From: a virus
IMG/VR virus record: IMGVR_UViG_3300031578_000249
Coordinates: 1-29,747 of that record
Reading direction: 5' to 3' (one strand)
DNA length: 29,747 nt
Shown: positions 2,758 to 10,174 of the stretch, piece by piece
Layout: every line of letters begins with the position of its first letter
Position numbering within the stretch: position 1 is the stretch's first letter
Program-made: the position numbers and the translations under genes
The notes under the pieces: generated by a model
The model's database searches: none
What the model was told of the DNA's origin: nothing
What the model saw: the letters and a program-made list of their open reading frames with translations, nothing else

Positions 2758-3405
2758 ATGAAAACAAATGAATCATTGTTTGAATTGTTGTCGAAAATTA
2801 ACGTCAACGATAAAACAGAAAAAAGAAACGGATTGACTTATTTGTCTTGGTCGTGGGCGTGGTCCGAATTCAAAAAACACGTTCCAAATGCGAAATATGA
2901 AATCATTCGTGATGAAAAAACCGGATTTCCTTACATGGTTGATGGTTTTGGAATTATGGTTTCAACGCGCGTCACCGCAAATGACGAATCACATGAAATG
3001 TGGTTGCCGGTCATGGATGGTGCGCACAAATCAATGAAATCGGAAAAATGGTCATATTCTGTCAACGAATGGTCAAACGGCAAAAAAACCGGACAAATGA
3101 TTGAAAAATTTGTTGAACCGGCAACAATGTTTGACATCAATACGGCAATCATGCGTTGTTTGGTCAAAAATTTGGCAATGTTTGGATTGGGAATTTATAT
3201 TTATAGCGGTGAGGATTTGCCGGAAGGATGGACGCCACCAAAACCGGCAATCGACAAAAAACGTTTTGAAAATGCGTTGGCGTCAATAGAGAAAAACGAA
3301 TTCACATCCGAAAAATTGATTGAAAAATTTCAATTGACAAATGCGCAACAAATCGAATTGAACAAATTGATTGAATCAATCAAAAAAAATGAGTTAACAA
3401 AGTAA
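2758..3405 (+). CDS. DUF1071/Sak-type single-strand annealing protein
   Basis: 215 residues that match the DUF1071 family, thought to be single-strand annealing recombinases of the Sak3 group. Diagnostic pieces are L-T-Y-L-S-W-S-W-A-W near residues 26-35, a predicted strand with Y-E-I, the block M-V-S-T-R-V, and M-W-L-P-V-M-D near 80-90. The C-terminal third, after P-E-G-W-T-P-P-K-P, is a charged helical extension that may contact partner proteins. The start follows AACAAAAAACAAAACAC. It is followed by Gp157-like and OB-fold genes, a set common in phages as a recombination module. The family assignment is from memory; its annealing function is inferred from relatives. Confidence 0.8.
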   Translation: MKTNESLFELLSKINVNDKTEKRNGLTYLSWSWAWSEFKKHVPNAKYEIIRDEKTGFPYMVDGFGIMVSTRVTANDESHEMWLPVMDGAHKSMKSEKWSYSVNEWSNGKKTGQMIEKFVEPATMFDINTAIMRCLVKNLAMFGLGIYIYSGEDLPEGWTPPKPAIDKKRFENALASIEKNEFTSEKLIEKFQLTNAQQIELNKLIESIKKNELTK

Positions 3406-3430
3406 TATAAACACAAAAAACAAAAACAAA

Positions 3431-3922
3431 ATGGGAAATTTATTTCAGATTTCAATGGAAATGCAATCAATCATGAATGAATTGATTGAAAACGATGGTG
3501 AATTGACGCCACAATTGGAACAAATGTTGACAATTGCAGAATCAAATTTGAATGAAAAATCGTCAAATTATGCTTATGTGATCCGGTCAATGGAATATGA
3601 CAATGACATAATTGATTCAGAAATTAAAAGGTTGCAAGGTTTGAAAAAAACACGAACGAACGCAATCGATCGTTTGAAAAACGCGTTGTCAAATGCAATG
3701 ATTATTTGTGACATCAACGAAATCACAACGGCAACGTCAAAAATTTCATTCAGAAAATCAACAACATTGGAAATATTGGATGAATCAAAGGTTCCAAAAG
3801 AATATAAAACAAATGTTGTCACAACAAAAATTGATAAAAATCAAATCAAAAGTGATTTGAAAGCCGGAAAAACCATCAACGGCGTTGAATTGGTGGAAAA
3901 TAAAAATTTACAAATTAAATAA
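3431..3922 (+). CDS. Siphovirus Gp157 family protein
   Basis: 163 residues with the layout of the Gp157 family first seen in Streptococcus thermophilus phages: a helical N-terminal half with E-L-I-E-N-D-G-E-L near 18-26, a central coiled coil (E-I-K-R-L-Q-G-L-K-K) near 63-75, and a C-terminal part with P-K-E-Y-K, then D-K-N-Q-I-K-S-D-L-K-A-G-K-T-I-N-G-V-E-L-V. Gp157 proteins are found beside recombination and SSB-like genes; their biochemical role is not firmly known. The gene is preceded by ACAAAAAACAAAAACAAA and ends two bases before the OB-fold gene, so the two are translated as a pair. Confidence 0.82.
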   Translation: MGNLFQISMEMQSIMNELIENDGELTPQLEQMLTIAESNLNEKSSNYAYVIRSMEYDNDIIDSEIKRLQGLKKTRTNAIDRLKNALSNAMIICDINEITTATSKISFRKSTTLEILDESKVPKEYKTNVVTTKIDKNQIKSDLKAGKTINGVELVENKNLQIK

Positions 3923-5634: not shown

Positions 5635-5650
5635 ACTTAAAAAAAACAAA

Positions 5651-5857
5651 ATGAAAAATAAAATGATTAGGGAAAATATGATTCACAAATTGACATTGTT
5701 GGAAACGTGTGAATATAGAAAACGCGGTTTGGAATTAGTTGGAAAATATACACATGAACCGCCACAATTTAGAAACGATTTGTTTGAAATATTTGACAAA
5801 TTGTCGGATGATGATTTGTTGAAATTGTATAACTTAAAAATTAATATTTATGAATAG
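5651..5857 (+). CDS. Hypothetical small protein, 68 residues
   Basis: Not recognised. A lysine- and glutamate-rich, probably helical protein with C-E-Y-R-K-R-G near residue 20 and an acidic stretch F-D-K-L-S-D-D-D-L-L-K-L near 48-59. The start follows AAAAAAAACAAA. The last codons overlap the next gene's start by 8 bases, suggesting coupled translation with the zinc-finger protein at 5850. No membrane segment or metal site. Confidence 0.65.
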   Translation: MKNKMIRENMIHKLTLLETCEYRKRGLELVGKYTHEPPQFRNDLFEIFDKLSDDDLLKLYNLKINIYE

Positions 5858-6167
5858 TTTTGAACAAGGTGATTCAGTTGAAATAATTTCGAAAAAAACA
5901 TTTGGAATTGTTGAAGGAATCGAAAACGGAAAAATAATTGTCACAACAATTGATCACAAAACATTGGAATTGGAATTGAATGATATTCAAAAACACGATT
6001 CAACAATTGAAATTGATTGTGATGAATGTGATGGATCCGGTGAAACGGATGTTTTGGATTGCCGAACCAATTCCAATGATTGTTGTGGTGGATGTTATAA
6101 AACAATAAATTGTGACCGGTGCAATGGATCCGGAACAATGACAAAGGATATTTTTGAACTAATTTAA
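5850..6167 (+). CDS. SH3-like protein with a DnaJ-type cysteine-rich zinc finger
   Basis: 105 residues in two parts. Residues 5-48 look like a small beta-barrel of the SH3/KOW kind (E-Q-G-D-S-V-E-I-I, G-I-V-E-G-I, G-K-I-I-V-T-T). Residues 57-95 carry two C-x-x-C-x-G-S-G motifs (C57/C60 and C88/C91) with C71, C78, C79 and C82 between them, the signature of the DnaJ central zinc-finger domain. There is no J domain, so it is not a co-chaperone of the usual kind; such isolated zinc fingers occur in phage and may act in protein or nucleic-acid binding. Translationally coupled to the 68-residue gene before it. Codon use is phage-like, unlike the methyltransferase that follows. Confidence 0.75.
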   Translation: MNSFEQGDSVEIISKKTFGIVEGIENGKIIVTTIDHKTLELELNDIQKHDSTIEIDCDECDGSGETDVLDCRTNSNDCCGGCYKTINCDRCNGSGTMTKDIFELI

Positions 6168-6178
6168 AATAAATAAAG

Positions 6179-6955
6179 ATGAAATTATTTAATATAGACG
6201 AACAATATTATATCCCTAAAAGGTTTTTAGGTGAAGAAACGAAAAATGGTGGGCTAACTAAAAATAACCCTAGGAAATGGACTTCAAATGAAATTGAATG
6301 GGCATTAAGTCTTAAAGAAAAAGGATTTAAAAATAAAGATATAGCAAAGTTTTTATATAGAGAATTAGTTAGCGTTTCTATAAAGATGAAAAGAATTGCT
6401 AAAAATAATGGCATTACATATAACGAACCACATAGAGAAGATAAATATTTACACAATGATTTATTTTTAGCAGAAATCAATCCTAAATTAGTTTTAGATT
6501 TATTTTCTGGTGCAAATTCTTATTATGATGGTAAAGTAGAGGAACTTTATACAAACGATATAGATGAAAGATTTAATACTTACTATTCTGAAAAGGCGGA
6601 GAAATTAGTATGCAAATTATATTATGAGGGTGCAAAGTTTGATTTAATAGATATTGATCCATTTGGTTCCGCTTATGATTGTTTTGATTTATGTGTAAAA
6701 ATGGCTAAAAAAGGGTTAATAATAACTCTTGGTGAAATAGGACATAAAAGATGGAAAAGGTTGGATTTCGTTAGAAGCCATTACGGGATTGAAAAATTGG
6801 AAGATTTTACAAGCAATAGAATTGTTGATGAAATTATAAAAATAGGTGCAAGGAATAAGAAAAAACTAATACCTATTTTTTTGAATGATTATAGAAATAT
6901 ATCAAGAGTATATTTTAAAATAGAAACAATGAAAATTACAGAACAATGGGAGTAA
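6179..6955 (+). CDS. Trm1-like methyltransferase with N-terminal HTH, foreign composition
   Basis: 258 residues. Residues about 33-75 (K-W-T-S-N-E-I-E-W-A ... K-D-I-A-K-F-L ... S-I-K-M-K-R-I) look like a Myb/SANT-type or homeodomain-like helix-turn-helix. A class I SAM-binding motif follows at V-L-D107-L-F-S-G111, then N-D-I-D near 128, then D158-I-D160-P-F-G-S. The D-P-F-G form of the catalytic motif is typical of Trm1, the tRNA guanine-26 N2-dimethyltransferase, rather than of D/N-P-P-Y adenine DNA methylases. The product could modify RNA or, given the HTH, DNA; the target is unknown. Leucine is mainly TTA and arginine AGA, and AG/CT dinucleotides are roughly five times as common as in the terminase gene, so it was almost certainly acquired recently. 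No own promoter was recognised. Confidence 0.78.
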   Translation: MKLFNIDEQYYIPKRFLGEETKNGGLTKNNPRKWTSNEIEWALSLKEKGFKNKDIAKFLYRELVSVSIKMKRIAKNNGITYNEPHREDKYLHNDLFLAEINPKLVLDLFSGANSYYDGKVEELYTNDIDERFNTYYSEKAEKLVCKLYYEGAKFDLIDIDPFGSAYDCFDLCVKMAKKGLIITLGEIGHKRWKRLDFVRSHYGIEKLEDFTSNRIVDEIIKIGARNKKKLIPIFLNDYRNISRVYFKIETMKITEQWE

Positions 6956-7001
6956 TTGCACCTAACGCAAAAGGCGTAACTAAAAACTAAAAAAATAAAA
7001 C

Positions 7002-7331
7002 ATGGAAAATTTTGAAAAATACGAACACGACATTCACAATTTGCCAACACCGGACCAAATGAAAACATTTGATGAAATGATTGGATTTTTAAAAACACGC
7101 GCCAATTGTCGTGTTGATTGCGTTCATTTTTTCGTGTTGGATCTTCATTCACATTTGAAAAAAATTCAATTAATGGTTGAATCAATTCCAATGGAAAAAA
7201 GAAAAACACATTTTGAATGCAAACAAATCAAACATCGGTTGTCAATTATTTTAAAAAATTATTTGGATGGAAATATTCAACAAACCGGAACATTGAATGT
7301 GGACACCACATTTTCATCATACAAAAAATGA
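7002..7331 (+). CDS. Hypothetical protein, 109 residues
   Basis: Not recognised. Predicted helical, with histidines and cysteines scattered (D-C-V-H-F-F-V-L-D-L-H-S-H near 44-56) that might bind metal, although no clear ligand spacing is visible. The start follows AAAAAAATAAAAC, 46 bases after the methyltransferase stop. Codon use returns to the phage pattern (TTG leucine, CGT arginine, few AG/CT), so the methyltransferase insert ends before this gene. It is the last gene before the promoter at 7336. Confidence 0.7.
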   Translation: MENFEKYEHDIHNLPTPDQMKTFDEMIGFLKTRANCRVDCVHFFVLDLHSHLKKIQLMVESIPMEKRKTHFECKQIKHRLSIILKNYLDGNIQQTGTLNVDTTFSSYKK

Positions 7332-7335
7332 ATTA

Positions 7336-7365
7336 TTGAAAAACATTATTTTTTCACTAAATTTG
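7336..7365 (+). promoter_or_regulatory. Bacteroidota-type promoter before the membrane protein/endolysin genes
   Basis: TTG (7336-7338), 19 bases, TAAATTTG (7358-7365), 31 bases before the ATG at 7397. It fits the -33/-7 consensus at the best spacing and lies in the only gap of this part of the window. Confidence 0.7.
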
Positions 7366-7396
7366 TGATTCAGCATTAAACCAATAAATAAAAAAC

Positions 7397-7648
7397 ATGA
7401 AAAAACAAGAACAACAAACATCAAAAAAACCATCATTGAAAATTCGAATTGTCGGAATGTTGATTTTTCCGGTTGCGTTGTTATTTTGGTGCATTGACCG
7501 ATTGATTCACGTCATCATGCCACATGCAACACACAACAAATTCACCGATTATTTGAAAAACATGGAAAACATCAAATGGACCATTGCGCGAATCATCACA
7601 TTGTTTATTCCATTTATGTTGTGGAAATTGTTTTGGTGGATCGTATAA
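7397..7648 (+). CDS. Two-helix membrane protein, holin candidate
   Basis: 83 residues. After a basic N-terminus (many Lys), hydrophobic segments at about 17-40 and 60-82 are separated by a polar, histidine-containing loop. Size, two membrane helices and its position 11 bases ahead of the endolysin gene suggest a holin or another membrane partner of lysis, which would permeabilise the inner membrane. The C-terminus ends in aromatic residues (K-L-F-W-W-I-V), with no charged tail, which is less typical. A second holin-like protein is encoded at 27643, so only one of the two may be the main holin. Confidence 0.6.
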   Translation: MKKQEQQTSKKPSLKIRIVGMLIFPVALLFWCIDRLIHVIMPHATHNKFTDYLKNMENIKWTIARIITLFIPFMLWKLFWWIV

Positions 7649-7659
7649 AAAACTGAATC

Positions 7660-8250
7660 ATGATCAAACCAATTTTCAACAATAAACGATTCACATTGTC
7701 CGAATTATTGACCGCGCAAAGGGAATCTGAACGAAATGATGACGAGGATGTTTTTTTGGATGTTCCGTTCACAAACGAAATTTGTCCGATTTCCATTGAT
7801 GAAAATGAATTGCGTCAATACATAAGAAACGCCGAAATAAAGCGAAAAATAACATCATTGACAATTCATTGCACCGCGTCACATCAAACCGCTACAATTA
7901 GCGGAATTTTGGCAATGTGGAAACGCAAAGGATGGAAAAACGTCGGTTATCACATTATATTGCCGTTGACCGGTTTTTCAGTTTTGGCAGATTTTAACAA
8001 TGTCACAAACGGCGCAATTGGTTATAATCAAAACGGCGTTCACATTTCATATATTGGCGGAATTGACGAGAACATCAAAGCAATTGACAACCGAACAGAT
8101 TCGCAAAAACGATTGATTGACGTTTTTATTGTTGAAATGGTAAAACGATTTCCGAAAATTAAGGTGATCGGACACAATGAAGTCGCGAACAAAGCATGTC
8201 CATCGTTCAAAGTGAAAAACGAATATCCGGAACATTGGACCGGAATATAA
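7660..8250 (+). CDS. Endolysin: N-acetylmuramoyl-L-alanine amidase (Amidase_2/T7 lysozyme type)
   Basis: 196 residues. The amidase domain spans roughly 64-190. Zinc ligands are H70 (L-T-I-H-C-T-A), H172 (I-G-H-N-E-V) and C180 (K-A-C-P-S-F); the H-to-C distance of eight and a lysine two residues before the cysteine (K178) match T7 lysozyme. Y97 in V-G-Y-H fits the catalytic tyrosine. It cleaves the amide bond between muramic acid and the stem peptide, degrading the cell wall at lysis. The first 60 residues are a charged extension with no signal peptide, so release probably needs a holin. It follows the two-helix protein and precedes terminase. Confidence 0.92.
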   Translation: MIKPIFNNKRFTLSELLTAQRESERNDDEDVFLDVPFTNEICPISIDENELRQYIRNAEIKRKITSLTIHCTASHQTATISGILAMWKRKGWKNVGYHIILPLTGFSVLADFNNVTNGAIGYNQNGVHISYIGGIDENIKAIDNRTDSQKRLIDVFIVEMVKRFPKIKVIGHNEVANKACPSFKVKNEYPEHWTGI

Positions 8251-8262
8251 AATTTTAAAAAT

Positions 8263-8769
8263 ATGGAAACGAACAAAAACACCGCAAAAACCGATTCAAA
8301 AACAACCAAACGAACAAACACACGTTCAATCAAAAAAACGCCGGTAATCGAAAAACAATCAACAAATTCCGACATATTAAAAGAGAAACCCGAACAAACA
8401 CAAACAATAAACGCCAAAAAACGGATGTTGAAAGCAATGGAAAACAATTTGTGTATTGTCACAAGGGCGTCAAATGTTGCAAAAATTCATCGTTCAACTC
8501 ATTATCAATGGATCGTCGATGATCCGGAATATAAAAAACAAATTGATGAATTGTCGGAAATCGTTCATGACATGGTTGAAAACGAATTGTTTCAACAAAT
8601 AAAAGGTGGAAACACAACATCAACAATTTTCTACATGAAATGCAAAATGCGTTCACGCGGTTATATTGAAAAATCTGAAATGGATTTGAATTTCAATCAA
8701 CCGGATTTTTCACAATTGACAACGGATGAAATTCGTCAAATGCTAAAAATTGAAAATGAACAAAAATGA
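8263..8769 (+). CDS. terS: Terminase small subunit
   Basis: 168 residues. A long lysine/threonine-rich flexible N-terminus (1-48) precedes a helix-turn-helix near 50-90 (N-L-C-I-V-T-R-A-S-N-V-A-K-I-H-R-S-T), which should recognise the packaging start in phage DNA. The middle D-M-V-E-N-E-L-F-Q-Q-I-K-G-G-N-T-T-S-T-I-F-Y-M-K-C is the oligomerisation block common to small terminases of the phBC6A51/Terminase_1-like kind. The C-terminal end contains acidic residues that may bind the large subunit. The end overlaps the large-subunit gene by 14 bases, the usual TerS-TerL arrangement. Confidence 0.85.
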   Translation: METNKNTAKTDSKTTKRTNTRSIKKTPVIEKQSTNSDILKEKPEQTQTINAKKRMLKAMENNLCIVTRASNVAKIHRSTHYQWIVDDPEYKKQIDELSEIVHDMVENELFQQIKGGNTTSTIFYMKCKMRSRGYIEKSEMDLNFNQPDFSQLTTDEIRQMLKIENEQK

Positions 8770-10126
8770 TGTCATCAAACAAATGTTGTTTTTTGAATTG
8801 TGCCGTCGTGATTTTTGGACATTTTGCAAATTTTATGACAAACAATTTTTCAGTCAACGAACATTTTTGAAGGATGTCGCGACGGCGTTTCAAAAAATTG
8901 AAAATGGTGAAATCAAATCGTTGTCGGTTTCCATGCCACCACGCGCCGGAAAATCATTCATCACATCATTGTTTTGTGCGTGGACCATTGGCAAACATCC
9001 ATCGGAATCCGTTATGCGAAACACATGCACCGCGACGTTGTACAAGAAATTTTCTTATGACGTGCGTGACATTGTGCGTTCGGAACAATTTCAACAAGTT
9101 TTTCCAAATGTCCGATTGTCGGATGACAAATCAAATTTGGATGGATGGAACACAAATTCATCAAAACAAGTTGGTTATTTTGGTGCCGGTGTTGGTGGAA
9201 CAATCATTGGTTTTGGCGCGTCAAAATTAGCAATCACAGATGATTTGTATAGAAATTTAGAGGACGCAATAAACGAAAACCAAAACGCGCGAATCATCCA
9301 ATGGAAACAAGGAACGCACGATTCACGTTTTGAATCCGGATGTTCACGAATTGACATCGGTACACGTTGGACGCGCGACGATTTGATTGGTCAAAACATT
9401 GATTCCGGCGTTTATGAAAAAATAATCATGATAGAAGCATTGAACGAAAATGATGAATCGTTTTGTGAACATGTGATGACAACGGATGAATATTTGGAAA
9501 AAAGAAAAAAAACAACACCGGAAATTTGGTTGGCGGAATATCAACAAACGCCAATTGATTTGACCGGACGTTTGTTTGGATCATTGGAAATAATGAATCC
9601 AAATGAATTTGAATTGATGATGGACCGCAAAAATCCAAATGGAGATTCAATTTTTGATGGTTTCATTGCTTATTTGGACGTCGCAGATATGGGAACGGAT
9701 TTCACCGCGTTGTCAATTGCCGGAATAAGCGGTTCGGAAATTATTGTTTGCGATTATGTTTTTGACCGGTCCAACACCGATGTCACAATTCCAATGGTTG
9801 CGTCCAAATTGGAAAAATGGGGTGTGAAATATTGTCGCGTTGAATCAAATTCAATGGGTGCCATTTATTCACGACAATTGCAGAAACAAACAAAATGTAG
9901 AATTTTGCCGGTTCCAAATACACAAAACAAAATGACGAGAATCATCATGAATTCGGATTTCATTTTGAACCGGATGAAATTCGTGAAATATGACAATCCA
10001 CAATCGGTTCAATTTATTGAAAACGTTTTGTCATTCAGTAAGGAAGGAAAAAACAAACATGATGACGCGCCGGATTGTTTGTCGGGTTTGTCAATGTTGA
10101 TTCAATCAATGTTCACTAATATTTGA
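8756..10126 (+). CDS. terL: Terminase large subunit (packaging ATPase/nuclease)
   Basis: 456 residues from the ATG at 8756; the frame extends to a TTG at 8750, but ATG is preferred. The ATPase half has a Walker A variant M-P-P-R-A-G-K66-S-F (about 60-68) and a Walker B/catalytic strand L-A-I-T-D162-D163. The nuclease half starts with the RNase H-like strand Y-L-D308-V-A-D and ends with D436-D-A-P-D-C-L. These metal-binding acids cut concatemeric DNA, while the ATPase drives it into the prohead through the portal. The N-terminal F-W-T-F-C-K-F-Y region matches the adenine-binding lead-in of this family. No intein or intron interrupts the gene. It is followed by an unusual 149-base non-coding region. 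Confidence 0.95.
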   Translation: MNKNDVIKQMLFFELCRRDFWTFCKFYDKQFFSQRTFLKDVATAFQKIENGEIKSLSVSMPPRAGKSFITSLFCAWTIGKHPSESVMRNTCTATLYKKFSYDVRDIVRSEQFQQVFPNVRLSDDKSNLDGWNTNSSKQVGYFGAGVGGTIIGFGASKLAITDDLYRNLEDAINENQNARIIQWKQGTHDSRFESGCSRIDIGTRWTRDDLIGQNIDSGVYEKIIMIEALNENDESFCEHVMTTDEYLEKRKKTTPEIWLAEYQQTPIDLTGRLFGSLEIMNPNEFELMMDRKNPNGDSIFDGFIAYLDVADMGTDFTALSIAGISGSEIIVCDYVFDRSNTDVTIPMVASKLEKWGVKYCRVESNSMGAIYSRQLQKQTKCRILPVPNTQNKMTRIIMNSDFILNRMKFVKYDNPQSVQFIENVLSFSKEGKNKHDDAPDCLSGLSMLIQSMFTNI

Positions 10127-10133
10127 CAACAAA

Positions 10134-10174
10134 CGTTCAACAAGTGTTAAACAAGTGTTCAACACAATTGAACA
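10134..10174. promoter_or_regulatory. Array of four phased TGTTnAACA-like palindromes
   Basis: Four related 9-base units, CGTTCAACA, TGTTAAACA, TGTTCAACA and ATTGAACA, have centres at 10138, 10149, 10160 and 10170. The spacing of 11, 11 and 10 bases puts them on one face of the helix. The third is extended to the perfect palindrome GTGTT-C-AACAC. It lies just behind the terminase gene and about 70 bases before the structural-gene promoter. Likely a cooperative protein-binding array (operator or packaging site). Confidence 0.55.

Follow-up and report, generated by a model that had tools for sequence, protein, structure and literature searches.

Introduction

Trm1, the tRNA (guanine26-N2) dimethyltransferase (PF02005, TIGR00308; PDB 2dul, 2ejt, 3axs), carries a D-P-F-G sequence as its motif IV. 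The characterised D-P-F-G enzymes act on tRNA, and so do the characterised enzymes closest to the protein analysed here. To our knowledge, the methyl marks that enzymes place on DNA are at adenine N6, cytosine N4 and cytosine C5. Phage DNA can carry other groups, such as N6-carbamoylmethyl adenine, the product of Mom. A methyl group at guanine N2 lies in the minor groove, and most restriction enzymes do not read DNA from that side. We did not find enzymatic DNA guanine-N2 methylation in the portions of the open-licence literature available to us, which is weak evidence of absence. In these portions, papers naming N2-methylguanine in DNA treated it as a damage adduct (for example PMC12051148, PMC4595711), and other papers concerned tRNA or RNA bases.

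We analysed a 29,747-base uncultivated virus record (the window, i.e. the whole stretch of DNA), which contains replication, packaging and lysis genes of phage type. At 6179–6955 it encodes a protein in which a predicted helix-turn-helix (HTH) domain precedes a Trm1-type methyltransferase core. This protein is most likely a variant of the phage DNA-modification enzymes, and novel chemistry is plausible.

Dinucleotide composition of the window

Outside the methyltransferase gene, observed/expected ratios were 0.28 for AG, 0.10 for CT, 0.32 for TA and 1.70 for CG. Against this depleted phage background, the ratios inside the gene (6179–6955) were near expectation (AG 0.90, CT 1.02, TA 0.89), as anticipated by a sequence-only reading that had called the gene a compositional island. 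The AG and CT counts given in that reading for 6301–6900 were exact (AG 25 + 17 = 42; CT 10 + 6 = 16). A sample of the terminase gene (9001–9600) contained 12 AG and one CT. We observed that TA is also depleted in the phage, where the earlier reading had named AG and CT alone.

To control for protein sequence, codons were redrawn synonymously in 40 genes with the protein held fixed. In 37 of these, AG was 0.06–0.40 and CT 0–0.40 of expectation; the methyltransferase gene had 0.94 for AG, 0.70 for CT and 1.25 for TA. The flanking genes at 5850 and 7002 retained the phage composition in this control, in agreement with the earlier reading. The 777-nt methyltransferase gene holds 165 AG, CT and TA dinucleotides, compared to a mean of 45 in other 777-nt windows (sd 11, maximum 92). 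The depletion was seen in every codon phase and intergenically, and it thus characterises the genome as a whole rather than a handful of proteins.

The same AG/CT/TA depletion (CT 0.10 of expectation) is common to the window and to L025, L026, L073, L074, L081–L095 and L098. It extends over most of the phage lineage, to ~60% portal identity; one relative, L097, is without it. A second, weaker compositional island lies at ~2278–2725 and contains two small ORFs, of 70 and 84 aa, in which TA is close to normal and AG and CT are elevated. Neither ORF had a PHROG match. This island is probably another recent insertion.

The methyltransferase gene was recently acquired

The features of the island and its surroundings are as follows.

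5850..6167, + strand: upstream slot-flanking gene, 105 aa, Cys-rich and zinc-finger-like, with phage composition
6126..6167, + strand: left anchor, a likely recombination arm; the upstream gene ends in these 42 nt, which the diverged phages L073 and L074 have unchanged and L025 does not
6140..7022, + strand: whole replaced stretch (island), from the L025 alignment; 6145–6997 by composition scan
6179..6955, + strand: HTH and Trm1-type methyltransferase gene, 258 aa, an intact ORF with ~67 viral relatives
7000..7030, + strand: right anchor, where the downstream gene begins; common to L073 and nearly to L074, not to L025
7002..7331, + strand: downstream slot-flanking gene, 109 aa, of unknown function, with phage composition

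L025 is a contig from a sibling phage (terminase 97% identical, same dinucleotide depletion) without the methyltransferase gene. Where the window has 883 bases (6140–7022), L025 carries a different sequence of 83 bases. To the left, window 5640–6139 matched L025 1244–1743 at 99.6%; to the right, window 7023–10164 matched L025 1827–4968 at 97.5%. A log-odds maximal-segment scan that used AG, CT and TA alone, and was independent of the alignment, returned 6145–6997. The close agreement of the two methods bears out the sharp edges proposed earlier. The closest protein relatives (91%, 86%, 84% and 70% identity) sit in contigs with ordinary AG/CT/TA ratios, and DNA similarity to these contigs starts and stops near the ends of the gene. 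Composition, the empty site in L025 and the confinement of similarity to the vicinity of the gene together show that the gene arrived recently in the lineage of the window phage. A comparison for amelioration of the window copy toward phage composition had few lineage-specific changes to draw on.

In L073 and L074, lineage mates at a greater distance, this pair of flanking genes surrounds different content. In L073 the slot (3279–3545) holds an 88-aa hydrophobic protein; in L074 (1977–3296) it holds a 203-aa Mom-like protein (phrog_1384, E = 4e-33) and small unknown ORFs. The right anchor shared by the window, L073 and L074 covers ~26–31 bases at the beginning of the downstream gene, and the proteins of the three are elsewhere only ~50% identical. 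Anchors conserved among otherwise diverged phages are the pattern expected from cassette exchange by recombination, and such exchange at the conserved flanks may account for the variable slot. L025 also carries a phosphoadenosine phosphosulfate reductase-like gene (336–1232; phrog_424, E = 2.8e-19) at a neighbouring variable position, where the window has a different small gene.

The catalytic domain resembles Trm1

The predicted parts of the protein are as follows.

6272..6412, + strand: N-terminal HTH, GcrA/HTH_38/Myb-like, residues ~32–78, from Pfam matches in relatives and an AF2 model
6422..6928, + strand: Rossmann-type SAM methyltransferase domain, Trm1-like, residues ~82–250, from profile and predicted structure
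6656..6667, + strand: putative catalytic motif D160-P-F-G163 (motif IV of Trm1), with D-P-[FY]-G in 66/67 sequences
6731..6766, + strand: family signature GEIGHKRWKRLD, residues 185–196, near-invariant in alignments A2 and A3

The Pfam TRM model matched the catalytic domain of every one of the 50 sequences in alignment A3, at best with E = 4e-9. The AF2 model of the protein (mean pLDDT 85.6, pTM 0.67) was compared to solved structures with Foldseek, and the best five matches were all Trm1 (top E = 1.5e-8). By VIA, Trm1 3axs reached Z 14.6 over 172 residues; RlmI-like RNA methyltransferases tied with it, with fewer residues aligned. An hhalign comparison to the profile of an archaeal Trm1, L072, gave 95.6% (E = 1.3e-8, residues 59–249). 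The Trm1-like core with D-P-F-G claimed from the letters alone was therefore borne out by Pfam, Foldseek and profile comparison. Two outcomes that would have spoken against it were looked for and not seen, namely a match to a known DNA adenine or cytosine methylase and a loss of the catalytic residues in all relatives. With hhalign, we observed no profile similarity to two phage DNA adenine methylases of the Dam/CcrM type (1.9% and 0.1%) or to one DNA cytosine-C5 methylase (0.2%), and the window protein had no PF00145 match. D-P-[FY]-G is kept in 66/67 sequences, the exception being L024 (DSYG). Apart from L024, the other 66 members also have near-invariant D107, N126/D127 and a GE.GH.R..R.D signature. 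Motif IV is DP[FY]G and not the (D/N/S)PP(Y/F/W) of adenine-N6 and cytosine-N4 DNA methyltransferases.

We rejected full Trm1 identity for the window protein. On its own it scored 22.1 bits with Pfam TRM, under the cut-off of 27, and 17.3 bits with TIGR00308, far below the 280.65 bits of the full-length Trm1 family. The Trm1 C-terminal domain is absent, the protein ending at alignment residue 216 of the 343-aa archaeal Trm1, and GE.GHKRWKRLD replaces the TATD of L072. With this domain missing and TATD replaced, the protein is not a Trm1, though profile and model comparisons support a catalytic core of Trm1 type.

The N-terminal domain is a predicted GcrA/Myb-type HTH

Members of A3 matched HTH_38 (13/50), GcrA (12/50; best E = 2.6e-6 in relatives) and Myb (8/50; best E = 8.3e-6); these matches were weak but repeated. 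Modelled alone, the HTH (AF2, pLDDT 81.3) matched GcrA, LuxR-type and Myb domains, including the GcrA DNA-binding domain 5yiu at 1.0 Å over 44 columns (Foldseek E-values >0.1). VIA gave Z 6.9, a modest value as expected for 45 residues, and fitted GcrA 5yiu at 1.3 Å with 25% identity; several of the top VIA matches were a Myb repeat of a spliceosome protein. Conserved residues of the HTH are R61, K69, K71, R72 and K75. Most GcrA/LuxR/Myb-type domains bind DNA, with exceptions among spliceosomal Myb repeats. The Myb/HTH-like N-terminus noticed earlier holds up as GcrA/Myb/LuxR-type in Pfam and structure matches, and these data support a predicted three-helix HTH of the GcrA/Myb DNA-binding type.

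The gene belongs to an uncharacterised viral family

Profile scans of viral contigs returned 67 family loci, mostly full-length, at 37–91% identity; the distant relative L024 (~25% identity) came from an earlier scan. The gene is under purifying selection (dN 0.045, dS 0.475 against L002; dN/dS ~0.1). Family members were found here solely in uncultivated viral contigs. There was no match in 50,697 cultured phage records with five members as queries, nor in plasmid records with one member as query. In the genome collection we observed no host-encoded member, and the sole hit was the canonical archaeal Trm1 (L072). No Pfam, PHROG or NCBIfam model spanned the whole window protein, and the family, with ~67 viral members, is uncharacterised. 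PADLOC matches (CasR, CARF HTH) were set aside as weak HTH matches. PHROG likewise gave the window protein only weak matches, all to the HTH, and Foldseek against viral models returned generic methyltransferases only.

L024 (1188–2093) has the HTH, a degenerate catalytic motif (DSYG) and a position directly upstream of a large terminase-like ORF. It is possibly a derived, non-methylating member.

DNA-modification genes are enriched next to the family

Neighbour HMMs were built from the C5 methylases, amino-methylases and Mom-like proteins near the first relatives and run on all loci, and contigs with similar flanks were merged into 53 flank clusters. A C5 (Dcm-type), Dam/CcrM-like or Mom-like gene lay within 150 bp in 14/53 clusters, a count biased for the first loci because the HMM seeds were chosen after these had been seen, compared to 11/443 (2.5%) control genes from the same contigs, 1.5 kb or more distant (P = 8.6e-9, Fisher). 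One-per-cluster control draws gave a mean of 1.9 and a maximum of 6 (2000 draws). The other 39/53 clusters had no DNA-modification gene within 150 bp. An unseeded census of close neighbour families had DNA amino-methylases (8 clusters) and C5 methylases (7 clusters) at the top. All DNA-modification neighbours within 1 kb share the strand of the family gene, and 16/16 amino-methylase neighbour hits carry (D/S)PPY. Sibling contigs exchange the neighbour: L018 has a C5-like gene and L019 a Mom-like gene, and L052 has a C5 gene and L057 an amino-methylase. We observed no tRNA genes in the window and none close to the gene in relatives; scattered ones occur only in L018, L019 and L021. The earlier reading had not chosen between DNA, tRNA and another RNA as substrate; the neighbourhoods and the slot exchange argue for DNA modification over tRNA as the role.

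Discussion

In our preferred reading, to which we give a probability of roughly 0.55, this is a mobile accessory phage gene for a DNA-modifying methyltransferase. The GcrA/Myb-like HTH would dock on DNA and choose the sites. The Trm1-type core, with SAM and D-P-F-G, would methylate an exocyclic amine in phage DNA during infection, most likely guanine N2. The modified phage genome would then escape recognition by host restriction or by other defences that target DNA, in the way that Mom and orphan DNA methylases act, and phages would swap the gene in and out of the variable slot via recombination at the conserved flanks. DNA as the substrate is suggested by context, that is, by neighbourhood and slot; guanine N2 as the target atom is suggested by likeness to Trm1, and protection is the presumed benefit. 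Because the slot otherwise holds DNA-camouflage genes in such phages and the protein joins an HTH to a Trm1-type core, the gene may put on phage DNA a methyl mark made by no known enzyme. The narrower proposal, in which a sequence-directed DNA guanine-N2 methyltransferase would use a tRNA-type core to make N2-methyl-2'-deoxyguanine as a minor-groove mark, is one we hold tentatively and lean against.

Several observations count against the preferred reading. The minor-groove position of an N2 methyl makes the protective benefit not obvious, and both the tie with RlmI-type RNA methyltransferases and the 39/53 clusters without a close modification gene weaken the case for DNA. The presence of the spliceosome Myb repeat among the best VIA matches indicates that Myb/HTH folds can also bind RNA. 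The main rival is an RNA (tRNA) guanine-N2 methyltransferase that would reshape or protect tRNA in infection, for example against a tRNA-cleaving defence, with the HTH serving RNA binding or dimerisation. A Trm1-type core with DPFG kept, the tRNA substrates of characterised DPFG enzymes and the occurrence of Myb-type folds in RNA-bound complexes are all consistent with it. We consider it rather unlikely, since the Trm1 C-terminal domain is absent, the scattered tRNA genes of three relatives do not adjoin the family gene, and the neighbours are DNA-modification genes, with a Mom-like gene in the same slot of L074.

The neighbourhood and slot evidence for DNA would also suit a DNA methyltransferase with an active site converted to act on adenine N6 or cytosine N4, giving an ordinary mark from an unusual core, and exocyclic-amine methylases do share general chemistry. 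The hhalign values against the two adenine methylases and a motif IV of DP[FY]G in place of (D/N/S)PP(Y/F) make this distinctly doubtful. A DNA-bound regulator or non-catalytic protein, in which the methylase fold is a relic, could be imagined from L024, which keeps the HTH and has DSYG for DPFG; the purifying selection on the gene and the near-invariance of D-P-[FY]-G, D107, N126/D127 and the signature in the other 66 members make it very improbable.

Were guanine N2 of DNA the target of this phage enzyme, its product would be a base mark of a new kind, located in the minor groove, and phages would have a further way to counter defences. The enzyme would then also be an example of an RNA-modifying core re-targeted to DNA by gain of a DNA-binding domain. 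Even with an RNA substrate, the ~67 members would represent an uncharacterised viral enzyme family.

Comparison with known systems

Similar to Trm1, the window protein has a Rossmann core with D-P-F-G as motif IV, and Trm1 matches it best, in structure and in profile, over residues ~59–253. Unlike Trm1, it has an N-terminal HTH, lacks the C-terminal domain, carries GE.GHKRWKRLD for TATD, and belongs to a family that sits in phage DNA-modification neighbourhoods. The orphan phage DNA methylases (Dcm-type PF00145 and Dam/CcrM-type) occupy the same neighbourhoods and have presumably the same anti-restriction role, but differ in motif IV and show no profile similarity to the window protein. The GcrA DNA-binding domain (PF07750, PDB 5yiu) is a well-fitting small HTH like the window N-terminus; GcrA is a transcription regulator, whereas the HTH of the window protein is joined to a methylase. 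Mom-like proteins (phrog_1384), which fill this same slot in L074 and sit at adjacent positions in other phages, are a different family and are not SAM methylases of this fold, but they probably serve the same role.
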